From Burkholderiaceae bacterium (GTDB lineage: Bacteria > Pseudomonadota > Gammaproteobacteria > Burkholderiales > Burkholderiaceae_A), in NCBI GenBank assembly GCA_018882785.1, contig VERI01000001.1, forward strand, positions 248,001 through 312,000: a DNA stretch of 64,000 bases. The letters run 5' to 3'. Below the pieces are notes generated by a model. That model worked only from the letters and a program-made list of their open reading frames with translations, ran no database searches and was not told the DNA's origin. The position numbers and the translations under genes are program-made. Of this stretch, positions 2,515-58,322 are shown in pieces. Positions within the stretch are counted from its first letter, which is position 1. Each line of letters opens with the position of its first letter.

Positions 2515-3228
2515 ATGAACGACCTTAGTCAAGCCAGCTATCTTAAACAGCGTGACCGCATTGAGCACTATTTCGATCGGACCGCGGCCGATACTTGGGC
2601 CCGGCTGACCTCAACCGCACCAGTGAGCGGTATTCGCGCAACTGTCCGCGCTGGCCGTGATCGCATGCGGACGACATTGCTGTCCTGGATGCCCGAGGAT
2701 CTCTCCGGGTTGCGGCTCCTCGATGCGGGCTGTGGAACCGGTGCGCTGTCGATTGAGGCGGCCCGTCGAGGCGCTGATGTGGTGGCCATTGACCTCTCCC
2801 CAACCCTGGTCGGCCTGGCCAGAGAGCGTGCGCCAGAGCAGCTGGGCCGAGGTCGAATTGAGTTTCGCTCAGGCGACATGCTTGATAGCGGCCTTGGTGA
2901 GTTCGACATCGTGGTCGGAATGGATTCGCTGATTCATTACCAGCCGGCGGATGTGGTGCGGGTGCTCTCAGGATTTGCGATGCGAACGCATCGGCAGATT
3001 TTATTTACGTTTCCTCCGCGCAATCTGGCGCTTGCCGCCATGATCACGATCGGCCGTCTTTTTCCGCGATCGGATCGGGCCCCATTTATTGCACCGGTGG
3101 CAGCGGATCGGCTCCGTCGACTGATCCAACAGGCCCCTGGACTTGCTGATTTTTCGATCGGCAGAACCCTGAAAATTTCCAGCGGGTTTTATACCTCGCA
3201 GGCACTCGAACTGGTGAGGGCGACATGA
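2515..3228 (+). CDS. bchM: Magnesium-protoporphyrin IX O-methyltransferase
   Basis: SAM-dependent methylation of the ring C propionate of Mg-protoporphyrin IX, making the monomethyl ester that AcsF, encoded 3.8 kb downstream, then cyclises. The class I methyltransferase motif LLDAGCGTG is at residues 68-76, followed by VVAIDLSP. Length 237 residues, normal for BchM. It starts 23 bases after bchL and its stop overlaps the lhaA start (ATGA at 3225-3228), so it sits inside a coupled operon. Confidence 0.95.
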   Translation: MNDLSQASYLKQRDRIEHYFDRTAADTWARLTSTAPVSGIRATVRAGRDRMRTTLLSWMPEDLSGLRLLDAGCGTGALSIEAARRGADVVAIDLSPTLVGLARERAPEQLGRGRIEFRSGDMLDSGLGEFDIVVGMDSLIHYQPADVVRVLSGFAMRTHRQILFTFPPRNLALAAMITIGRLFPRSDRAPFIAPVAADRLRRLIQQAPGLADFSIGRTLKISSGFYTSQALELVRAT

Positions 3229-4688
3229 GTAAAGCCTCGGTGCTCAAGTCGTGGCGTAAGTGGACCCGAGTGAGCCCACGGTTTCTGCCATTTGCAGATG
3301 TCGCCACGAAAGAGCTGCCGCTGCGGCGTTTATTTCAGCTGTCTTTATTTCAGGTATCGGTCGGCATGTGCATGGCGCTTCTGATTGGCACGCTGAATCG
3401 GGTCATGATTGTTGAGCTCGGTGTTGGGGCATGGCTGGTCGCCCTTATGGTGGCACTGCCGTTGTTATTCGCGCCTTTTCGCGCTCTGGTTGGATTTAAA
3501 TCAGATACCCATCGCTCGGTGCTTGGCTGGCGCAGGGTGCCGTATATATGGCTGGGCACCTTGGCCCAGTTCAGTGGCCTGTCGATCATGCCGTTTGCCC
3601 TGATTCTGCTCTCAGGCGATAGCCACTGGCCTGTCTGGACTGCCCACCTGGGCACAGGTCTGGCGATTCTTTTGGTGGGTGTTGGGCTACAGACAACACA
3701 GACTGCAGGCCTTGCACTCGCAACCGATATTGCGCCGGAGGCCTCGCGCCCCCGCGTGGTCGCGATGATGTACGCCATGCTGCTGGTGGGCATGGTGGCC
3801 AGCGGCATTGTCTTTGGTCTTCTGCTCAGTGAATTTAGTCAGATCAGGCTCGTCAAGGTGATTCAGGGTGCCGCTGCAGTATCGGTCGTGCTGAATATCG
3901 TGGCCTTATGGAAGCAGGAGGCACGTTATCCGCAACGTACATCGGGGGCCATTACCCGGCCCACATTCCGGGATAACTGGAATCGCTTCGCGCGTCAGCC
4001 CAGCACACGTCGATTTCTATTGGCGTTGGGAATGGGCACTGCAGCTTTCAGCATGCAGGATGTGATTCTTGAGCCATACGGTGGAGAAGTGCTTGGCCTC
4101 TCTGTATCCGCCACCACGGTGCTGACCGCCCTGATGGCGATGGGAGCGCTCGCTGCATTTATGCTCGCCGCCCGATGGCTGATGCGTGGCATGAATGCAT
4201 TTCGTGTGTCCGCCCTTGGTGCGGTTGTGGGTCTTGCGGCGTTTTCATGTGTGATTTTTTCAGAGCCTTTTCAACAGCCTGATCTTTTCCGGCTAGGCGC
4301 TGTGCTGATTGGCTTTGGCGGCGGCCTCTTCTCAGTGGGGACCCTGACGGCAGCGATGAATTTTGAGCCCGCTGATGCCGATGATCCTTTTGGGACGAGC
4401 GGCATGGTGCTGGGCGCCTGGGGCGCAGTGACTGCCACAGTGACTGGCCTGTCGATGGCACTGGGTGGTGCGATCCGGGACATGGTCTCGACCATGGCAC
4501 TCGAAGGAAAAATAGGCGATGTACTGGTGCAGTCCGTCACCGGATACAGCGTGGTGTATCACCTGGAGATTGGTTTGTTGTTGGTAACGCTGATCGTGAT
4601 CGGCCCGATGGTCCGCCTGACAAGGCGCACACCGCAGGGCCCGTCGTCATCGGCATCAAAGTTTGGTCTTGCTGAATTCCCCGGCTGA
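3225..4688 (+). CDS. lhaA: LhaA/PucC-family bacteriochlorophyll delivery protein (LH1 assembly)
   Basis: Twelve-helix membrane protein of the bacteriochlorophyll delivery branch of the major facilitator superfamily, needed for assembly of the LH1 antenna. The conserved N-terminal block RFLPFADVATKELPLRRLF and the loop GFKSDTHRSVLGWRRVPY are visible. It is clearly a paralogue of the pucC gene at 44265-45683, which shares RFLPFADxAT, LFQVSVGM and LIGTLNRVMIVEL. Position between bchM and puhA is the standard lhaA position, which separates it from pucC. Length 487 residues. Confidence 0.93.
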   Translation: MSKASVLKSWRKWTRVSPRFLPFADVATKELPLRRLFQLSLFQVSVGMCMALLIGTLNRVMIVELGVGAWLVALMVALPLLFAPFRALVGFKSDTHRSVLGWRRVPYIWLGTLAQFSGLSIMPFALILLSGDSHWPVWTAHLGTGLAILLVGVGLQTTQTAGLALATDIAPEASRPRVVAMMYAMLLVGMVASGIVFGLLLSEFSQIRLVKVIQGAAAVSVVLNIVALWKQEARYPQRTSGAITRPTFRDNWNRFARQPSTRRFLLALGMGTAAFSMQDVILEPYGGEVLGLSVSATTVLTALMAMGALAAFMLAARWLMRGMNAFRVSALGAVVGLAAFSCVIFSEPFQQPDLFRLGAVLIGFGGGLFSVGTLTAAMNFEPADADDPFGTSGMVLGAWGAVTATVTGLSMALGGAIRDMVSTMALEGKIGDVLVQSVTGYSVVYHLEIGLLLVTLIVIGPMVRLTRRTPQGPSSSASKFGLAEFPG

Positions 4689-43642: not shown

Positions 43643-43686
43643 TGTCATTTATCTTTGACATTTTTATGTGTAAGGCTAAAATGACA
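43643..43686 (+). promoter_or_regulatory. puc promoter with two tandem PpsR/CrtJ-type palindromes
   Basis: Two TGT-N12-ACA motifs, 43643-43660 and 43669-43686, separated by exactly 8 bases. The first ends in a perfect -35 TTGACA (43655-43660) and the second contains a -10 TAAAAT (43677-43682), with a 16-base spacer. Bound PpsR/CrtJ would thus block both promoter elements, the arrangement known from Rhodobacter capsulatus bchC. It predicts aerobic repression of the puc operon. Confidence 0.85.
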
Positions 43687-43958: not shown

Positions 43959-44144
43959 ATGATCTACGGAAAAATTTGGTGCGTGGTCAAACCCTCGGTG
44001 GGCATCCCTCTGTTTCTGTCTGCCGTCGCGATTGGCTCATTTGCTGTGCACCTGGCGCTGGTAACGAACACCACCTGGGTGAAAGATTTTCTTCAAGGTG
44101 GCCAGAAGACGGCTGCTGCGCAACCGCAGGCCGTCAAGAAGTAA
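43959..44144 (+). CDS. pucA: Light-harvesting antenna alpha subunit, LH3 (B800-820)-like
   Basis: Sixty-one-residue alpha polypeptide, one helix. It aligns without gaps to the first 48 residues of LH2 alpha chains: GKIWCVVKP at the N-terminus, His31 as the B850 ligand, TTW at 38-40 and QGG at 46-48. Positions 44 and 45, Tyr-Trp in B800-850 complexes, are Phe-Leu here, the residues of the B800-820 form. AAGGAG precedes the ATG by six bases. The Ala/Gln/Lys tail is longer than usual. A hairpin terminator follows. Confidence 0.95.
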   Translation: MIYGKIWCVVKPSVGIPLFLSAVAIGSFAVHLALVTNTTWVKDFLQGGQKTAAAQPQAVKK

Positions 44145-44170
44145 CCTCCGTTTTCTTGGGTTTGCCTAAA

Positions 44171-44206
44171 AAGGGCGCCGGGGTGATCTGCTCCGGGCCC
44201 TTTTTT
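44171..44206 (+). terminator. Hairpin terminator between pucA and pucC
   Basis: Stem AAGGGC/GCCCTT extended by an inner CCGGGG/CTCCGG helix with a one-base bulge, then six T. It probably ends most pucBA transcripts so that antenna subunits far outnumber PucC, as stem-loops do in other puc and puf operons. Confidence 0.85.
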
Positions 44207-45683: not shown

Positions 45684-45717
45684 AGAGCCAGTGTTCTGTA
45701 AGAAAGGTGGGTGTTGT

Positions 45718-45804
45718 ATGGAAGTATGGCAAGTAATTTTGGTGATTTGGGCAGCGGTTGCCGTAACCTTGGTTGCCAATCATTTCAATCGGGGCGGTAA
45801 GTAG
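45718..45804 (+). CDS. 28-residue single-helix membrane peptide after pucC
   Basis: ATG to TAG gives 28 residues: a short N-terminal MEVWQ, a hydrophobic helix (VILVIWAAVAVTLVA) and a polar NHFNRGGK tail. AAGGTGG at 45704-45710 sits seven bases before the ATG. It lies 34 bases after pucC and is followed by a strong terminator, so it is the last unit of the puc transcript. Size and topology recall the gamma-type or W/Z-type accessory helices of some antenna complexes; no sequence family was recognised. Confidence 0.6.
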   Translation: MEVWQVILVIWAAVAVTLVANHFNRGGK

Positions 45805-45828
45805 CCAGATTGATGCTGTAGTCATAAG

Positions 45829-45855
45829 ACAGGCCCCTCTTTGGGGCCTGTTTTC
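45829..45855 (+). terminator. Rho-independent terminator ending the puc locus
   Basis: Perfect 9-base stem ACAGGCCCC/GGGGCCTGT with a 5-base loop (TCTTT) and a following TTTT run. It closes the pucBAC plus micro-ORF transcript. Confidence 0.92.
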
Positions 45856-49812: not shown

Positions 49813-52800
49813 ATGGCTGAGCAAAATATCTATCTGTATGCGACCCAATCCCCACCGGCGAGCATTGACACAGGGGAGGAAGATTTCCCTGATGCACCGG
49901 GCGTCATGCTCGCAGACGGAACAATCTTCTATACCTGGAAAGATGATCCCCTGAAGACTGACAGCTCAGGAACCGGCATCTTCGATCCCTTCTTGACCAT
50001 TCAGCAGTCTGGTTCCGAGACTGGCACGAATCTGTATAACGGCAGTACCTATGCCACAGGTAACGCAATTAGTTCTAGCGATAACCGGACCAGCCTGCTG
50101 GAGATCAGCAAGATTCCTGTGGTGGGTGTTGGTGATATGCAGTACCTGGAAATCCGCCTGGATCTGAACGAAGTGAGTGGCGGTGGCGGCCCGAAGGCGG
50201 AGGTCCGTATGACTGATCTGAAAATCTACGGATCCAATGATTCTAGTCTTTCATCCTTTGCAGGACTTACCCCACTGTATTCGATTGACAGCGCAGCGCT
50301 TGATACCACAGTGCATATGTGGGATGACTTCAACGGCAGCGGACGCTCCGATGTCGTGATGCTGATACCCAAGAGCTATTTTGCCTCCAATCCCCAATAC
50401 CTGTATTTCCAGACCACTTTCCAGGGAACCGACGGGGGTTTCGAAGAATTCTCGACTCAGGTTCTGCAGGCGCCGCTGGATCCTTCCGTGACTATCGAGA
50501 AGACTGCGGACGTACTCAATTCCGATCGCAGTGACGATACCGATGACATCATTGATTCGGCGGGGGACATCGTGACGTATACGGTCTCGGCCAGTAATCC
50601 TGGTGATGTGCCACTGACCAATCCGACCATCACCGATCCTCTAATCGCCGATTCATTAGATACCAATGATGATGGCTTGGTGAACGCAGCAGATATTGTT
50701 AGCGGCGATACAAATGACAATGGCCTGCTCGATGTGGGCGAAACCTGGGTCTGGCAGGGGGAATACACCGTGACGCAGGCGGATATGGATGCCCGCGGAA
50801 ACTACGATGGGCCCGACGTAGATGCCATTAACGACAATGTCATTCGTAATGTGGTCGCGATCTCGACTGATGAGGGCGCGTCTGATGATGCGGTAGCCGA
50901 CAGTCTATTGGATTACAACCCTGTTCCAAACATTGAAAAAACCTATGATGTTCTAAACTCGGATCGCTCTGATGACCCTGATGATTTAATCGATATTGCG
51001 GGCGATATTGTTCAGTATTCGCTCAGCGTAAGAAATGACGGCAATATCACCCTGAGGGATGTGGTGATCACAGACCCGCTTATTGCTGATTCCTTGGATA
51101 CAAATGACGACGGCGTAGTCAACGTCCTGGACTCGACTGGTGGCGATGATGGAAACGGGCTACTAGATGTAGGTGAGACTTGGACCTTTGCCGGCGAGTA
51201 CACGGTCACCCAGGCCGATATGGATGCCCGAGGTAATTACGATGAACTTAGCGACGGGACCAATGACAATGTAATTCGAAATGCCGCGAGTGTTGAGGTG
51301 AAAACTCTAGACCAGAGCTTGAGTGCCACCACCCGTACATATACAGACCTTAACTATGAACCACTCATCAGTATTGAAAAGCTCGCCGATGTTCTGAACT
51401 CTGATCGGTCGGATGATGCGGATGACGTCGTTGATACAGCTGGTGACATTATCACCTATAACGTCAGTGTCAGAAATGAGGGTAATATTACTCTGACCGA
51501 TGTGGTGTTGACCGATGCCCTGATCGCTGATTCATTAGATACCAATAATGATGGCTTGGTAAACGCAGCAGATATTGTTAGCGGCGATACAAATGATAAT
51601 GGCCTGCTAGATGTGGGCGAGACCTGGGCATTTACCGGCGAATATTCTGTTAGTCAGGCGGATATTGACAATCACGGCAATCACGACAGCATTGATCCGG
51701 ATACGATCAATGACAATGTGATGCGCAATGTGGTTGCAGTCACGTCTAAGGCCAGTGACCAGAATATCTCAGATGATACTTTCGTAGATACCAGGGTGAT
51801 CTATGGGCCGGACTTGGAAATCCTCAAGACGGCCAACGTCTCGGAAGTGGATGCTGCTGGGGATGAGATTGAGTACACGGTGACGGTGAACAACATCGGT
51901 AACGTGACCTTGACCAACGTGGTGGTGACGGACCCCTTATCGGGCCTGTCGGAAACCATCGCCTCGCTGGCTCCGGGCGCTTCTGAATCCTTCACGGCGA
52001 CCTATCTTGCCACCCAGGGTGACTTTGATACCAACGGCGGTGGGGACGGGGATATCGACAACACGGCCACCGCCGACAGCGACGAGACCGATGTGGTCAC
52101 GGCCAGCTACGCGGTCGATTTACTGTACAACCCTGCGATGAGCATCTCGAAGACTGCCAATGTTGAGTCCGTAGACGAAGTGGGAGATAAGATTCTCTAC
52201 AGCATTGAAGTCTCAAACGTAGGTAATGTCACTCTTACCGACGTGACCTTAGAAGACACGCTAATCGAAGATACCCTAGACAATGATGCTAACGATGATG
52301 GCGTTATTGATGGGGATGACGGAGATGGTCTGCTTGAGGTTGGCGAGACCTGGGTCTGGCACGGAGAATATACGGTTACCCAGACAGACTACGATGAGGC
52401 CTTGGCGACTTCAGGAGATTATTACATCCGCAACACCGCAACAGCGGATAGTGCTGAGACAGATCCCGTAACGTCTTCCGAAGAGGTAAGTCTGGTTAAG
52501 ATGGCGTTTGAAGGACTCTCTCCTGGCTATTGGAAGAATCATCCAGACGACTGGGATGGATTGCTGCCATCGGCAAGTTTTGAAACATTCTTTTTCGGTG
52601 GGCCAAAACCAGGCTTAAATTGGAAGGTAAAAACCACTGCCAATGGCAAAGATAAATTTGCAACAACCCAGGACATCACCATGGAGCAGGCCCTCGCCCT
52701 TACCGGGGGTTCGGAGGCGGCACTAGCGCGATCGGCAGTTGCTGCTGTGCTTAACTCTAGAGATGAGGATGTCACCTATCGGTTTACTGAAGCTCAGATC

Positions 52801-52941
52801 AAAGAGTGGGTTTCGGAGGCGCTCTCGGGTCAGCCAGTCGACCTAGAGAATGATGGTGTCATCGAGTACGCCGCCGGCGCTATGGCGATAGGGGGTGTCA
52901 AGGATCTTCTGGATTTTAATAACAACCTTGGCGTCATCTAG
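49813..52941 (+). CDS. Large repeat-containing surface/secreted protein, probable type I secretion substrate
   Basis: A 1042-residue protein with no signal peptide, next to its own type I exporter. Residues 1-225 are a non-repeat beta-rich domain. Five DUF11/DUF7507-like beta-sandwich repeats start near 226, 373, 520, 669 and 777, each opening with a [VI]EKT..VLN or ILKTAN strand; repeats 1, 2, 3 and 5 contain Asp/Asn-rich DTNDDG-type calcium loops. The C-terminus (about 902-1042) has GLSPGYWKNHPDDW and ends LDFNNNLGVI. AAGGAG precedes the ATG by eight bases. Likely an adhesin. Confidence 0.85.
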   Translation: MAEQNIYLYATQSPPASIDTGEEDFPDAPGVMLADGTIFYTWKDDPLKTDSSGTGIFDPFLTIQQSGSETGTNLYNGSTYATGNAISSSDNRTSLLEISKIPVVGVGDMQYLEIRLDLNEVSGGGGPKAEVRMTDLKIYGSNDSSLSSFAGLTPLYSIDSAALDTTVHMWDDFNGSGRSDVVMLIPKSYFASNPQYLYFQTTFQGTDGGFEEFSTQVLQAPLDPSVTIEKTADVLNSDRSDDTDDIIDSAGDIVTYTVSASNPGDVPLTNPTITDPLIADSLDTNDDGLVNAADIVSGDTNDNGLLDVGETWVWQGEYTVTQADMDARGNYDGPDVDAINDNVIRNVVAISTDEGASDDAVADSLLDYNPVPNIEKTYDVLNSDRSDDPDDLIDIAGDIVQYSLSVRNDGNITLRDVVITDPLIADSLDTNDDGVVNVLDSTGGDDGNGLLDVGETWTFAGEYTVTQADMDARGNYDELSDGTNDNVIRNAASVEVKTLDQSLSATTRTYTDLNYEPLISIEKLADVLNSDRSDDADDVVDTAGDIITYNVSVRNEGNITLTDVVLTDALIADSLDTNNDGLVNAADIVSGDTNDNGLLDVGETWAFTGEYSVSQADIDNHGNHDSIDPDTINDNVMRNVVAVTSKASDQNISDDTFVDTRVIYGPDLEILKTANVSEVDAAGDEIEYTVTVNNIGNVTLTNVVVTDPLSGLSETIASLAPGASESFTATYLATQGDFDTNGGGDGDIDNTATADSDETDVVTASYAVDLLYNPAMSISKTANVESVDEVGDKILYSIEVSNVGNVTLTDVTLEDTLIEDTLDNDANDDGVIDGDDGDGLLEVGETWVWHGEYTVTQTDYDEALATSGDYYIRNTATADSAETDPVTSSEEVSLVKMAFEGLSPGYWKNHPDDWDGLLPSASFETFFFGGPKPGLNWKVKTTANGKDKFATTQDITMEQALALTGGSEAALARSAVAAVLNSRDEDVTYRFTEAQIKEWVSEALSGQPVDLENDGVIEYAAGAMAIGGVKDLLDFNNNLGVI
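50650..50748 (+). repeat. Near-identical repeat copy 1 inside the surface protein gene
   Basis: This 99-base stretch encodes the calcium-loop segment of repeat 1 and matches 51529-51627 in repeat 3 at 94 of 99 positions by my count; four of five differences are silent and one changes Asp to Asn. Confidence 0.85.
51529..51627 (+). repeat. Near-identical repeat copy 2 inside the surface protein gene
   Basis: Partner of 50650-50748. The two copies are far more alike than either is to the equivalent part of repeat 2, which points to recent duplication or gene conversion between repeats 1 and 3. Confidence 0.85.
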
Positions 52942-52943
52942 GA

Positions 52944-54698
52944 GTGTTGGTCTCTGACCAAGTCGCTGCCCCGAAAGGGGCAGCGGTTCCTGCTCTCCGG
53001 GAACTCCCGTCAGGAGAGGTGTTTGCGGTACTCGCAGGTCATCGCAAGAGTCTGATGATGGTTGTGCTCTTTTCTGGCGCAATTAACTTGCTCTATCTGA
53101 GTCCTGCCCTTTATATGTTACAGATCTATGATCGCGTACTCACAAGTCAAAGTGAAGCAACACTCATTGCTTTAACTATTCTTGTGTTTGGTATCTTTGT
53201 CTTTACTGGCATGCTGGAGAATGCAAGGGCCTCAGTTATGGCGCGGCTGGGTGATCAGCTGGAAAAAAAGCTCTCCGGGCGGGTGTATGCGGCGATGTTC
53301 GCCCGTCAAATGAAGTCCTCAGAAGGGCCAAGCAATCAACCGCTCTGGGACTTAAATCACCTCAGACAGTTCTTTTCTGGAAGTGGGCTGTATGCACTAC
53401 TCGATCTGCCTTGGCTTCCAATATTTCTTGTCACAATCTTTTTATTACATCCGATTCTCGGGTGGTTTGCACTCTTGGGGGCGATTACCCTATTTGTCAC
53501 AACTGCAGTAGCTGAACGTATAGCCAGAACACCGCTATCTCAGGCAGCTGAATGGACGATGGCGGCAAATGGCCTTGCTGCGAGTCAATTACGCAATTCG
53601 GAGGTAATCCATGCGCTCGGGATGCTTGCACCGCTTGCGGGTCGATGGCAGGCGCTTCAGGCAAGGGCAAGGGAATGCCAGCGTAAGGCATCTGACCAGA
53701 TAGCAAAGCTTAGCGGAACGACGAGGGTCTTGCGATTGGTTCTGCAGTCCGGTGTCCTTGGGCTTGGAGCCTATCTCGCTTTGCAAGGTGAGATTACTGC
53801 AGGTGCAATGATTGCAGCCACAATTCTCTGCACCCGTGCGCTTTCGCCACTTGAATCAGTCATCGCACATTGGAAGTCTATGCTCACGGCAATATCTGGA
53901 AAACGCCGCTTAGATCAGCTATTGGCTGATTATGTAGAGCCTGTGGTGGGCGTTGCCATACCGCGTCCAAAAGGTCTTGTAACTGCAGAAAATATTTTTG
54001 TTTCGAGCCCAAGCAATACGTCTTTCATTTTAAAGGGGGTAACGTTCCAGCTTGAACCTGGCGAGGTAGTCGGGGTGATAGGGCCGTCTGCCGCAGGGAA
54101 ATCTACTCTGGCGCGAAGTGTGGTGGGTGTCTGGCCGACCCAGCTAGGCAAGCTGCGTCTAGACGGAGCCGATATACGAAACTGGCCAAAGTCGGAACTC
54201 GGTCCTGCAATTGGCTATCTACCTCAGGATATTGAACTATTCAGCGGAACGGTAGGAGAAAACATCGCCCGGTTTGGTCCCATGGATTCGGAAGCCATTA
54301 TTCAAGCGGCCAATGTCTGTGGAATTCACGGCATGATCCTCCGGCTTCCAAAGGGCTACGACACAACAATCGGAGAGGGTGGAGCGATACTCTCAGGAGG
54401 TCAGCGACAGCTAATTGGTTTAGCAAGAGCCGTATACGGAAAGCCCGCATTAGTTGTACTGGATGAGCCAAGTTCCAATCTTGACGAGGTCGGTGATCGT
54501 TGTCTTGCAAGGACAATTGAATCGCTCCGTTCATGGGAATGCACTGTCCTGGTGGTTTCTCATGATCCGAAACTTTTAAAAATTACAGATAGATTAATGC
54601 TCATCTTTGATGGACAGATTCGTACATCGGGACCCACGGCCGAGGTAATTGCATCTCTGAAGAAAAGTTCTCGGAGTGCTGTCGAGGAAAAGGGTTAG
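52944..54698 (+). CDS. Type I secretion ABC transporter, permease/ATPase (PrtD family)
   Basis: Inner-membrane exporter of 584 residues: a six-helix membrane domain (about 35-330, including LYLSPALYMLQIYDRVLTS, the PrtD/HasD mark) and an ATPase domain with Walker A GPSAAGKST (about 383-391), signature LSGGQRQ (about 483) and VVLDEPSSNLD. There is no N-terminal C39 peptidase domain, so it exports substrates with a C-terminal signal. GTG 52944 is two bases after the surface protein stop; a TTG at 52947 is also possible. Same operon as its likely cargo. Confidence 0.92.
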   Translation: MLVSDQVAAPKGAAVPALRELPSGEVFAVLAGHRKSLMMVVLFSGAINLLYLSPALYMLQIYDRVLTSQSEATLIALTILVFGIFVFTGMLENARASVMARLGDQLEKKLSGRVYAAMFARQMKSSEGPSNQPLWDLNHLRQFFSGSGLYALLDLPWLPIFLVTIFLLHPILGWFALLGAITLFVTTAVAERIARTPLSQAAEWTMAANGLAASQLRNSEVIHALGMLAPLAGRWQALQARARECQRKASDQIAKLSGTTRVLRLVLQSGVLGLGAYLALQGEITAGAMIAATILCTRALSPLESVIAHWKSMLTAISGKRRLDQLLADYVEPVVGVAIPRPKGLVTAENIFVSSPSNTSFILKGVTFQLEPGEVVGVIGPSAAGKSTLARSVVGVWPTQLGKLRLDGADIRNWPKSELGPAIGYLPQDIELFSGTVGENIARFGPMDSEAIIQAANVCGIHGMILRLPKGYDTTIGEGGAILSGGQRQLIGLARAVYGKPALVVLDEPSSNLDEVGDRCLARTIESLRSWECTVLVVSHDPKLLKITDRLMLIFDGQIRTSGPTAEVIASLKKSSRSAVEEKG

Positions 54699-54701
54699 AG
54701 C

Positions 54702-55622
54702 ATGGAGTCAAGTATAAAACGGGGCCTATGGATATTAATTATTCTTTTTCTTGGCCTCATACTCTGGGCGGTATTTGTTCCACTCGATTCCGGAATCCCT
54801 TCGAGCGGACAGGTGACGGTAGATGGTCGACGTAAAGTTGTTCAGCATCCTCGCGGGGGCGTTATTCAGCAGGTGCTCGTTAAAGAAGGGGATAGCGTAG
54901 CGGCTGGGGATATATTAGTTCGACTAGATAGCAGCACCGAACTGGGAAATCGCTCCCAGGCGCTTGCCCAGCTCCAGACGGCTGAGTTCCAGGCTCAGGC
55001 ACTCGAGGCGCAACTCCCAGGCCTGCGTGAACTGGCAGAGGATGGGTTTTATCCCCGTAATCAGCTGCTTGATCTCGAGAGAAAGCTAAAGGAGTCCAAG
55101 GCACTACAGAACGGCTTGCGGGATCAGATCTCTGCGCTCGATAGAGAGGTTCAACGGACTGTAATTCGAGCGTCTGTGGCCGGCAGAGTGATGGGGGTAA
55201 GTATCAATACGGAAGGCGCCGTCGCAATTGCAGGCACCAAGTTAATGGAGATTGTTCCAATCGATGATCGGGTCACCATTGAAGCGCAGGTCCGACCGCA
55301 TCTAGTCGATAAAGTACATTCTGGTGCGAGCGCCCAAGTCCGCTTTAGTGCTCTTCAAACCTCACGCACTCCAGTAATCTACGGCACCGTCGAGTGGATA
55401 TCTCCTGACCGGTTTCAACCAAAAGAGGATACTGCTAATGGCGATGGCTACTATCTGGCAAAGGTAGTGATTAATCAACAGGAGCTCGCTAAAGTAGATG
55501 GGTTTCGTGTAATTCCAGGAATGCCTGCCGATGTAATTATTAAAACCGGTGAGCGTACCTTCTTCCGATACTTGTTTAAGTCTATCTCCGATCGATTCGC
55601 CCACGCATTTAAGGAGTACTAA
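54702..55622 (+). CDS. Type I secretion membrane fusion protein (HlyD family), short form
   Basis: Periplasmic adaptor between the ABC exporter and TolC. One N-terminal helix (residues 8-29), GQVTVDGRRKVVQHPRGGVIQQVLVKEGDSVAAGD (biotinyl-lipoyl half), a short helical hairpin (about 85-155), the second lipoyl half with RASVAGRVMGV, and the beta-barrel ending in PGMPADVIIKTGERTFFRYL, the family C-terminus. At 306 residues it is about 120 shorter than PrtE/HlyD, the loss being in the coiled coil. Three bases after the ABC gene. Confidence 0.9.
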   Translation: MESSIKRGLWILIILFLGLILWAVFVPLDSGIPSSGQVTVDGRRKVVQHPRGGVIQQVLVKEGDSVAAGDILVRLDSSTELGNRSQALAQLQTAEFQAQALEAQLPGLRELAEDGFYPRNQLLDLERKLKESKALQNGLRDQISALDREVQRTVIRASVAGRVMGVSINTEGAVAIAGTKLMEIVPIDDRVTIEAQVRPHLVDKVHSGASAQVRFSALQTSRTPVIYGTVEWISPDRFQPKEDTANGDGYYLAKVVINQQELAKVDGFRVIPGMPADVIIKTGERTFFRYLFKSISDRFAHAFKEY

Positions 55623-57028
55623 TGAAGTGGGCGTTAAAATCCTATTGCAGATCGATCACATTAGTGGCCATCCTGATTCTCGGCCCCGCCTGTGCGCGGG
55701 CGCAATATCCAACTGATAAGACGGACCAGACCGCTGGAATGGCAGGGTTGCTGACCGCTCATCTTGATCAGGCAAGAAAGATTGACGGTACTTTTCTCGC
55801 AGCTCAAGCCTCTAAAGAGGCTGCCTGGCATTCCCTGCAAATCAATAGTGCTGCTCTCGGGTTAAAAGTAACGGCCACAGTAAATAGCTTTCATGCTGAA
55901 CGAACTGAAGAAAGTCGGCTAGTATCCGGATCCGTCTCTAGTAACCGCCACCTGAATTCATCTCTTGCAACCATTACCGCGCGACAGCCACTCTATCGCA
56001 AGAAGGACTTCTTGGCGGTTGAGCAGGCAACGATGCAACTGCAAAGTGCCGAAGCGATGGCGGAGTCAGCTACACACGTTCTCTTTGGGAGAGTGTTTAT
56101 CGCCTGGGTGGAGATACTGACCGCGCGCGACCTTCTCCATATTGCCCGACAGGCCGCTGAGCGGTCGGGAATGGTACGCGAGGAAATGGAACGCCGCTAT
56201 CGCGCCGGTGATATATCGCTGGACCAACTTGGGGTCGAGATCTCGCGACAGGAGCAGCGTCAGGCAGATGTCCTGGATGCGATGGGACGACTCTATATCG
56301 CTGAGCGGGGACTGATAGATCTGGTTGGCCCAGAGGCCAGTGTTCCATCGGAATTTACCTTGGAAACGGCCACCCCGAATATCCCAGCGAATCTGTCCGT
56401 ATCCGAGATCTCTCGCCTTGTAGATGAACGAAACCCCGAGCTAAGAGCTTCTCGGCTTCTGGAAGAGGTGGCTCGACTTGATCGAGAGCGGATGCGGGCT
56501 GACCATTTGCCGACCGTAGACCTCTATGCGAGTGTATCCAAAGGGGAAAACGATACAATTTCTTATATACGCGACGAAAGTCGCATTGGTGTCCAACTAT
56601 CGGTTCCGGTTTACACCAGTGGTTCTATCGATGCGGCGTCGGCACAGGCCGAAGCCCAGTATCGAAAAGCGCAGGCCCAGACGAGCTCGCTCGGGGTGCG
56701 TCTACGTGCGCAGGCGATATCTGCTGCGTCTAAACTTCGGACAAGTGTGGTGCGAATCGATACATACCGAACGCAAGTAGAGGCGACCGCACTGCGCGCA
56801 GAGGCGGTCCGGCGAGGGTTTCTTGCGGGTACGAGCACCCGCGGAGACTTCGCCCGCGCAGAAACTGAATATCTAACCGCGCGTCAGCGTCGAGCCAATG
56901 AAATGTTGGAATTTGCTAACGCATGGACATCATTTGTTATTGCAGCAGCACAGATAGATGCTAGCTTTCTTCAGGAGAGACAGGCGCCGGATAAACAGCC
57001 CGTAAAAATGGTCGGTTCCATGAAATAG
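55622..57028 (+). CDS. Type I secretion outer-membrane protein (TolC family)
   Basis: Outer-membrane channel of 468 residues with a signal peptide (SITLVAILILGPACARA). Two repeats of TolC-type coiled coil are visible, for example ERSGMVREEMERRYRAGDISLDQLGVEISRQEQRQ and VRRGFLAGTSTRGDFARAETEYLTARQRR. It begins at a TAATG overlap with the HlyD gene, so surface protein, ABC, HlyD and TolC form one operon. Separate from the housekeeping tolC at 29275. Confidence 0.92.
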   Translation: MKWALKSYCRSITLVAILILGPACARAQYPTDKTDQTAGMAGLLTAHLDQARKIDGTFLAAQASKEAAWHSLQINSAALGLKVTATVNSFHAERTEESRLVSGSVSSNRHLNSSLATITARQPLYRKKDFLAVEQATMQLQSAEAMAESATHVLFGRVFIAWVEILTARDLLHIARQAAERSGMVREEMERRYRAGDISLDQLGVEISRQEQRQADVLDAMGRLYIAERGLIDLVGPEASVPSEFTLETATPNIPANLSVSEISRLVDERNPELRASRLLEEVARLDRERMRADHLPTVDLYASVSKGENDTISYIRDESRIGVQLSVPVYTSGSIDAASAQAEAQYRKAQAQTSSLGVRLRAQAISAASKLRTSVVRIDTYRTQVEATALRAEAVRRGFLAGTSTRGDFARAETEYLTARQRRANEMLEFANAWTSFVIAAAQIDASFLQERQAPDKQPVKMVGSMK

Positions 57029-57116
57029 GTGGAGTCTTCCCACGTGGCGCGTGTAACTCTCTAGCTGTCGCGCATCAAACTCGTTTCCTCACGATTGCGA
57101 GCGAGGGAAGCCTCTT

Positions 57117-58322
57117 ATGAAACAGGTATTGGTGTCGGTATCTAACCAGTCGGAGATGGTACGACTGGCGCCTGTAATACGAACACTAAGAGATGATTTC
57201 TCGGACGTCGTCTGCACTCGCTGGGTCCGAACGGGATCTAACCCGGATAAAGTCTGGCAAACCGGCGCCCTGTTTGGGCTTTCTCCGGATCGCGAATTTG
57301 ATCTTCGATGTGGATCTAGCAATCTAGTGGAGCATAGCTGGGAAATTGCTAATAGTATGGGCAGAGAGTTTGACAGCACGGTTCCGGACCTACTGGTTAT
57401 TCAGGGTGAATCCCTATCCTCGCTTCTGGCTAGTCAGCAGGCCTTTATGCGTCGAATCCCTGTGGTTGTACTACCGAACCCGCTAAAACCCACCGTACTA
57501 CCCGTCGAACCCCATCTTGATTCCTATCGACGCCTAATATCCGCTGTTGCAAATTTTCGGTGTTTAACAAACGAACGTGATTTAGGGCTTCTGAAGGCAA
57601 CAGGAATTCCAAGTATCGAAATGGCTGTGACCGGGGATACCGTAGTAGACGCCTTGGCGATGGTGTTAAAGCACGGAATACTCGACCGAGAGAACCCGTC
57701 ACTAAAAAAAATCGTATCTCTTGATAATGCACAGATAGTGGTAGCACTTAGCAGCTCAACCAAGCGTATGGGTGCAATGACCGAGCTTGCCATCGCTATT
57801 GCAGAGATCTCTAGACAGTATCCGGGGATTCTCTTTACTGTGCTTACGACACCGGACTCTCAGATCCGTGGCCTATTACATTCAGTCCTTGATTCAATAC
57901 AAAATGTAACACTGCGGGAACCGGTACCGTTCTATGAATTTCTTCGAGTGTTGCAACTGCATGATCTTGTAATAACTGATTCTGAAGATCTGCATGCCGA
58001 GGCAACTGCATTAGGAAAACCTGGTTTCGTACTCGTCGATCTAGATTTCTCACTGAAACCAGATGGCATTTTCGATACGCAGTATGTGACTTGGGAACAG
58101 GAGCATCTATGTCATGAAATTTTAGGTTTACTCGCGGATAATGATATGTATCGAATGAATATTCCGGATTCCCACTGCCTTGGTGATGGGAAAGCAGCTA
58201 AAAGAATAGGATGTCTTATCGCGCACTGGGCGCGAAATAACTCTCTTTCGTCCCGTGCTTTTGAGCCTTATCGTGGAATTCCTCCGATCCGGAGGATTCC
58301 AGATAACTTGCACGCCGTCTGA
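57117..58322 (+). CDS. Degenerate UDP-GlcNAc 2-epimerase-like protein
   Basis: A 401-residue GT-B-fold protein resembling WecB in overall frame: LVSVSNQSEMVRLAPVI at the start, VTGDTVVDALAM in the middle and TDSEDLHAEATALGKPGFVLVD late. The catalytic motifs are altered: HGD is QGE, HVEAGLRT is replaced by LPNPLKP, and the HRREN segment reads SSSTKRMG. It therefore probably no longer epimerises UDP-GlcNAc. It stands alone between the type I operon and the pilus genes. Confidence 0.65.
   Translation: MKQVLVSVSNQSEMVRLAPVIRTLRDDFSDVVCTRWVRTGSNPDKVWQTGALFGLSPDREFDLRCGSSNLVEHSWEIANSMGREFDSTVPDLLVIQGESLSSLLASQQAFMRRIPVVVLPNPLKPTVLPVEPHLDSYRRLISAVANFRCLTNERDLGLLKATGIPSIEMAVTGDTVVDALAMVLKHGILDRENPSLKKIVSLDNAQIVVALSSSTKRMGAMTELAIAIAEISRQYPGILFTVLTTPDSQIRGLLHSVLDSIQNVTLREPVPFYEFLRVLQLHDLVITDSEDLHAEATALGKPGFVLVDLDFSLKPDGIFDTQYVTWEQEHLCHEILGLLADNDMYRMNIPDSHCLGDGKAAKRIGCLIAHWARNNSLSSRAFEPYRGIPPIRRIPDNLHAV

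Follow-up and report, generated by a model that had tools for sequence, protein, structure and literature searches.

Background

Genes 3' of pucC are familiar from Rhodobacter capsulatus, in which pucD and pucE (operon pucBACDE) encode larger proteins. Much smaller accessory polypeptides have been described within the antenna complexes themselves. The published account of Rhodopila globiformis describes an LH1 gamma-like peptide of 22 residues that was unannotated, forms one helix with a periplasmic N-terminus, and sits between the LH1 beta chains in an orientation opposite to that of alpha and beta (PMC9640540). The LH2 gamma polypeptide of Rhodopseudomonas palustris, in contrast, is depicted as an extended ribbon in which six repeats of ~15 residues bind bacteriochlorophylls through Ser, and its source reports it only in Rhodopseudomonas (PMC9618040). 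For Gemmatimonas, a gamma helix of the outer LHh ring was considered as a further precedent but dropped, because the consulted part of the corresponding report does not list such a chain (PMC12817894).

Here we describe a gene for a one-helix peptide in a puc (peripheral antenna) operon, located in a window of 64,000 nucleotides from a Burkholderiaceae bacterium (contig VERI01000001.1). A sequence-only reading of this window had proposed a gamma-like or assembly micro-subunit tied to an LH3-type complex, and had named as precedents the LH1 gamma of Blastochloris viridis, protein W or PucD-type peptides of Rps. palustris, and protein Z/U types. These precedents form a mixed set: protein W and the Blastochloris gamma are LH1 components, and the Rps. 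palustris LH2 gamma is a ribbon rather than a helix, as far as the consulted parts of these reports describe them (PMC10212510, PMC10214105, PMC9618040).

Results

A 28-codon gene at the end of the puc operon

The puc operon runs pucB-pucA-pucC-peptide, with the peptide frame as its last gene (Table 1). By gene order it is a product of this operon, as it lies 3' of a colinear pucBA-pucC and before the terminator at 45826-45854. Translation of positions 45718-45804 (forward strand) gives MEVWQVILVIWAAVAVTLVANHFNRGGK followed by a stop. The sequence-only reading had described a 28-codon ATG-TAG frame with AAGGTGG 7 bases away, between pucC and a perfect terminator, and the coordinates and the 12-bp stem agree with it. 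It had also placed two Trp residues in the hydrophobic core; both are present, although W4 stands at the N-terminal edge of the stretch and not in its middle.

Table 1. Features of the puc operon and its peptide gene in the window
Feature	Position	Strand	Evidence
Two tandem PpsR/CrtJ-type boxes TGT-N12-ACA, 8 bp apart	43643-43660, 43669-43686	+	
pucB, antenna beta chain, 50 aa	43794..43946	+	Pfam LHC E 9.4e-9; SD -8.7 kcal/mol
pucA, antenna alpha chain, 61 aa, Phe-Leu (LH3-type) motif	43959..44144	+	Pfam LHC E 1.9e-9
Terminator-like hairpin in the pucA-pucC gap, possible attenuator	44168..44205	+	RNA fold z -3.36
pucC, PucC-family antenna assembly protein, 472 aa	44265..45683	+	Pfam PUCC E 1.1e-143
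AAGGTGG ribosome-binding site, 7 bases 5' of peptide ATG	45704..45710	+	SD energy -8.2 kcal/mol
Peptide gene, 28 codons, one-helix product	45718..45804	+	ORF, conservation, selection
Intrinsic terminator, operon end	45826..45854	+	12-bp perfect stem, U-rich tail, z -3.96

The hairpin between pucA and pucC was also picked by a terminator scan (44178-44196). Upstream, the tandem boxes overlap the region's best sigma-70-like promoter (43655-43682, TTGACA-16-TAAAAT); since the window holds 12 TGT-N12-ACA boxes where 9.8 are expected, none of them stands out apart from this promoter-overlapping pair. In Rubrivivax, the motif is described at pucB and crtI with 8/9-bp spacing, and the layout of the window promoter resembles this PpsR layout (PMC4452267). 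According to the same source, redox-dependent binding of PpsR in Rubrivivax occurs at 9-bp and not at 8-bp spacing, and the spacing at its own pucB is 9 (PMC4452267).

The source genome, a 2.17-Mb draft, carries one further antenna pair, outside the window, and two further PucC-family genes, one of which is inside the window at 3225-4688. Another part of the window (49813-58322) encodes a protein of 1042 residues that contains five DUF7507 stretches. Behind it come genes for an ABC transporter, a further ORF, and genes for an outer-membrane efflux protein and an epimerase, so that the region resembles a locus for type I secretion of a surface protein.

Conservation and purifying selection

Short frames are abundant, with 171 of at least 20 amino acids in 10 kb, and the frame might on that ground encode no protein, being a chance frame or a leader or regulatory element at the operon end. 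Comparison with related loci speaks strongly against this. Among 80 pucC-related loci sampled from genome contigs (of which L009-L012 probably derive from the same genomes as known genus members and are thus not independent), a hydrophobic peptide of 27-39 residues lies 3' of pucC in 70. The peptide is complete with its own ribosome site in 69 of these, and in L021 the frame runs off the contig end. The slot is masked in one locus (L019), and the peptide is absent from nine. Four of the nine are LhaA-type loci followed by a reaction-centre H gene (L062, L076, L078 and L086), two have pucBA convergent with pucC (L048 and L065), two carry a different ORF in the slot (L074 and L083), and the last (L087) has neither.

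Relative to its nearest relative (L009), the window peptide has 15 synonymous and 0 amino-acid changes, and relative to L011 it has 10 synonymous changes and 1 amino-acid change. Over 30 pairs picked by PucC identity, pN/pS is 0.215, a ratio inflated by one misaligned pair with different starts (L015-L029), against a null mean of 0.91 and minimum of 0.64 when the same changes were placed at random in 1000 trials. Pairs had first been picked by peptide identity, which gave 0.153 but is biased to low pN, and were repicked for this reason. The ribosome site and start are retained while the genes that follow vary by lineage (methyltransferase, phytoene synthase, aminotransferase, FBPase, LysR regulator or reaction-centre cytochrome), and because this 3' neighbour differs, the peptide is linked to the puc genes. 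The peptide frame is a real protein-coding gene under purifying selection, kept across many freshwater betaproteobacteria. Conservation and selection rule out a chance frame, and we consider a non-protein element of any kind extremely improbable. The sequence-only reading had named conservation and dN/dS downstream of pucC as the check on its proposal, and both came out in favour of the frame (70 of 80 loci; 0.215 against 0.91).

Distribution across the order

A sample of 399 genomes of the order contained 48 with LHC antenna genes. In 23 of them pucBA lies colinear with, and ahead of, pucC, and 22 of these 23 have the peptide. None of the remaining 25 antenna-bearing genomes has it, namely five with pucC convergent to pucBA (0/5) and 20 in which no LHC pair was found beside a pucC of this type (0/20). 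The profile used (A2) gave 22 matches at E <=4.3e-8, all 30-127 bases 3' of a pucC match, and its next match came only at 6e-4, within an 859-residue frame; A2 was built partly from these very sequences, which match by construction, and a first profile (A1), made without the divergent group f2, had already found 17 of the 22 at <=1.3e-4. Together with the purifying selection, the counts of 22/23 and 0/25 bear out the proposal of a micro-protein tied to the puc antenna operon. A Fisher test on these counts takes no account of how the genomes are related, and its value is not to be read as a probability.

The sole colinear pucB-pucA-pucC operon of the order sample that lacks the peptide (G272, locus L137) carries Phe-Met at the two tuning positions of its alpha chain, and 3' of its pucC there is no small hydrophobic frame. 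On the PucC tree, presence and absence of the peptide require five changes, so the peptide has been lost or gained a few times. Outside the order, the 340 genomes of the class, few of them likely phototrophs, held no homologue except that of the source genome, and a search of plasmid records with the peptide gave no match.

As the five genomes with pucBA and a convergent pucC have no peptide, it is presumably dispensable for building an LH2 ring, which counts against a ring subunit. A further possibility is an action between complexes, for instance with one copy per ring, in docking LH2/LH3 to RC-LH1 or in setting ring size. Such a role would suit the confinement of the peptide to genomes with a pucC-linked antenna pair and its absence from all 20 antenna-bearing genomes without one, but the genomes with the convergent arrangement do without the peptide, and we regard it as unlikely.

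Three puc loci (L056, L074 and L083) lie on contigs of metagenome-assembled genomes labelled Akkermansia muciniphila and Sphingomonadales, and their PucC groups with Burkholderiales. The L056 contig is likely mis-binned, and those of L074 and L083 may be misbinned or transferred. The latter two are colinear puc operons in which an ORF overlapping the pucC stop (ATGA) replaces the peptide (L074:4431-5054 and L083:4455-5114). The encoded proteins, of 208 and 220 residues, are 77% identical to each other, have no Pfam, NCBIfam or PDB match, and end in a tail of about three and four 16-residue Gly-Tyr-Lys...Pro-Met-Pro-Thr-Leu-Ser repeats, respectively. By analogy, they are possibly an independent ribbon-type LH2 gamma. 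Because these tails recall the Rps. palustris repeat ribbon, there are hints that the slot 3' of pucC tends to carry accessory antenna genes.

Sequence features, predicted topology and family searches

Conserved positions of the peptide are 11 (aromatic), 17 (mostly Phe or Met), 21 (Asn), 23 (aromatic or Leu/Met), 24 (Asn) and 25 (basic). The basic C-terminus reads NRGGK in the window peptide and NRPxxK in many relatives, and the hydrophobic core is present in all members. AlphaFold predicted a single helix at residues 3-23 for the 31-residue member from Limnohabitans planktonicus (mean pLDDT 87.8, pTM 0.44). With the hydrophobic core, this gives the peptide the very short single transmembrane helix that characterizes the LH1 gamma and gamma-like polypeptides. 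A helical-face analysis of conservation, with its strongest period at 170 degrees and a weaker one near 110, yielded no clear face.

The more basic end of a membrane helix faces the cytoplasm (positive-inside rule). Mean net charge is +3.2 after residue 20 vs 0 in the first six residues, and the C-end exceeds the N-end in 70 of 72 sequences; this skew predicts an N-terminus outside, in the periplasm, and a C-terminus in the cytoplasm. No His position is conserved in the alignment, which suggests that the peptide probably lacks the usual mode of holding bacteriochlorophyll.

The window peptide had no Pfam match, and LHC was not among the families matched by the 63 members; neither the profile match nor the conserved ligating His of the LHC alpha/beta antenna family (PF00556) was found. 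Searches of Pfam, NCBIfam and PHROGs with the peptide returned weak, scattered matches only, which were taken as chance, as was a match to MscL in a PDB profile search (E 0.025-0.1). The peptide profile found no antenna protein among PDB chains up to E 10, and these searches revealed no sequence similarity to the known gamma chains. Judged on titles and abstract openings, no published description of the peptide was found. It is not a demonstrated member of any named family, and an antenna micro-subunit encoded in an LH2 operon would be a novel form of an established type.

The LH3-type motif

LH2 carries Tyr-Trp at alpha-44/45. The two tuning positions bear these numbers in the literature on Rhodoferax antarcticus (PMC5374385). 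The window alpha chain reads ...NTTWVKDFLQGG, with Phe-Leu, the motif of B800-820 antennae, at the two positions. Among PDB chains it is most similar to 1ijd, a B800-820 alpha chain. Across the 87 peptide-bearing loci for which an alpha chain was read (four others yielded none), the motif is Phe-Leu in 79, Tyr-Leu in 3, Tyr-His in 2, Tyr-Tyr in 2 and Phe-His in 1. Phe-Leu also occurs in 7 of the 11 loci without a seen peptide, a count that includes the masked L019 and is thus six for unmasked loci. The proposed tie to an LH3-type complex therefore suits the window, whose alpha chain has Phe-Leu, but does not extend to the family, as the motif fails to separate loci with the peptide from those without. 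Because 8 of the 87 lack Phe-Leu and six unmasked peptide-less loci have it, the peptide, by these motif counts, tracks operon colinearity rather than the LH3 motif.

Spectra in the literature agree with the blue-shifted class: the antenna of Rfx. antarcticus, which has a single puc operon, is reported at 819 nm (PMC5374385), and that of L. planktonicus, reported as atypical and of unknown ring form, at 799-813 nm (PMC12654162). A relative of the former, Rhodoferax lacus (L028), has the peptide together with a Phe-His alpha chain.

Translation signals and expected amounts

Pairing energies with the 16S end (kcal/mol) are -8.7 for pucB, -7.9 for pucA, +0.2 for pucC and -8.2 for the peptide, the window pucC having a GTG start and no Shine-Dalgarno (SD) site. 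In 50 loci the mapped start of pucC coincides with a start codon, and in 49 of these the peptide's SD is stronger than that of pucC. When pucC is given its best in-frame alternative start near the N-terminus, the peptide's SD is still the stronger in 57 of 66 loci. An SD near antenna strength, set against the weak one of pucC, favours production of the peptide in larger amounts than PucC. The peptide should be less abundant than alpha and beta, given its location beyond pucC and, in the window, beyond the terminator-like hairpin. This hairpin was detected in only 21 of 64 loci by the criterion used, and the attenuator was dropped as general evidence. Site strength and position are compatible with a subunit less numerous than alpha-beta, or with an assembly partner exceeding PucC.

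The second of these options is the main rival explanation, in which the peptide would bind PucC helices, help PucC deliver bacteriochlorophyll or hold nascent alpha/beta chains, and leave before the ring is finished. All 22 strong matches in the order sit directly 3' of pucC, several loci have ATGA overlaps with pucC that point to coupled translation, and the LhaA-type paralogues that precede a reaction-centre H gene have no peptide, all of which would suit a PucC partner. The far stronger SD of the peptide in 49 of 50 loci does not sit easily with such a partner, however, nor does the lack of the peptide beside the PucC of the convergent arrangement, which is 62-66% identical to that of the window. 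In eight Oxalobacteraceae-type loci (L023, L037, L039, L040, L045, L049, L053 and L063), moreover, the peptide lies 101-288 bases from pucC. We treat the PucC partner as a tentative alternative, with roughly one chance in three.

Discussion

Our preferred reading, to which we assign a probability of about 0.5, is that the peptide is a gamma-type accessory helix of the betaproteobacterial LH2/LH3 ring. In this model the N-terminus of the peptide would face the periplasm and its basic C-terminus the cytoplasm, an orientation opposed to that of alpha and beta. The helix may pack outside the ring between beta helices, where it could stabilise the ring and tune pigment packing. Its presence in 70 of 80 pucC loci and 22 of 23 colinear operons, its absence from the 25 other genomes and its purifying selection are in keeping with such a subunit, as are the predicted single helix, the positive charge at the C-end and an SD near antenna strength, which fits a product exceeding PucC. 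The Rpi. globiformis gamma-like peptide is likewise described as tiny, unannotated and one-helical, with its N-terminus in the periplasm and a place between beta chains (PMC9640540).

Several observations weigh against a gamma-type helix. The peptide has no sequence match to solved antenna accessory chains, though such short helices diverge fast; its position beyond pucC and, in the window, beyond the hairpin points to a lower yield than that of alpha and beta; and in several loci (e.g. L028, L032, L041, L054) the stop of pucC and the ATG of the peptide overlap, which suits a PucC partner equally well. A gamma-like or assembly subunit, as the sequence-only reading had it, is nonetheless still the best description, although its placement in the complex is inferred.

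A bolder proposal, which we consider rather doubtful, is that most betaproteobacterial peripheral antennae, including that of Limnohabitans, are alpha-beta-gamma complexes in which gamma is this peptide, antiparallel to alpha and beta, and that its packing helps to give these freshwater phototrophs their unusual absorption at 799-820 nm. If the peptide belongs to the ring, a subunit has been overlooked in the LH2/LH3 antenna of a large group of lake bacteria; if it is a PucC partner instead, it offers a handle on the assembly of the antenna ring. The puc locus of L. planktonicus (L047) carries the peptide, and a cultured organism is therefore available for settling the question.

Comparison with known systems

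In the slot 3' of pucC, the peptide gene has the same position as the accessory genes pucD and pucE of Rba. capsulatus, a likeness drawn from their general description. With the Rps. palustris LH2 gamma it shares its reading as an extra polypeptide of a peripheral antenna, but it is a single helix of 28 residues with no repeat, where that protein has six Ser-ligand repeats. Closest in form are the Rpi. globiformis gamma-like peptide and the Blastochloris viridis LH1 gamma, described like the peptide as tiny, hydrophobic, single-helix antenna accessories, and the orientation published for the former agrees with that predicted here from charge (PMC9640540). These two have no sequence match to the peptide and differ from it in belonging to LH1, with genes described as lying away from the antenna genes, whereas the peptide gene stands in an LH2/LH3 operon (PMC10212510, PMC9640540). 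If our preferred reading is true, a single-helix LH2 gamma would add a new architecture to those of the LH1 gamma helix and the LH2 ribbon of Rps. palustris.
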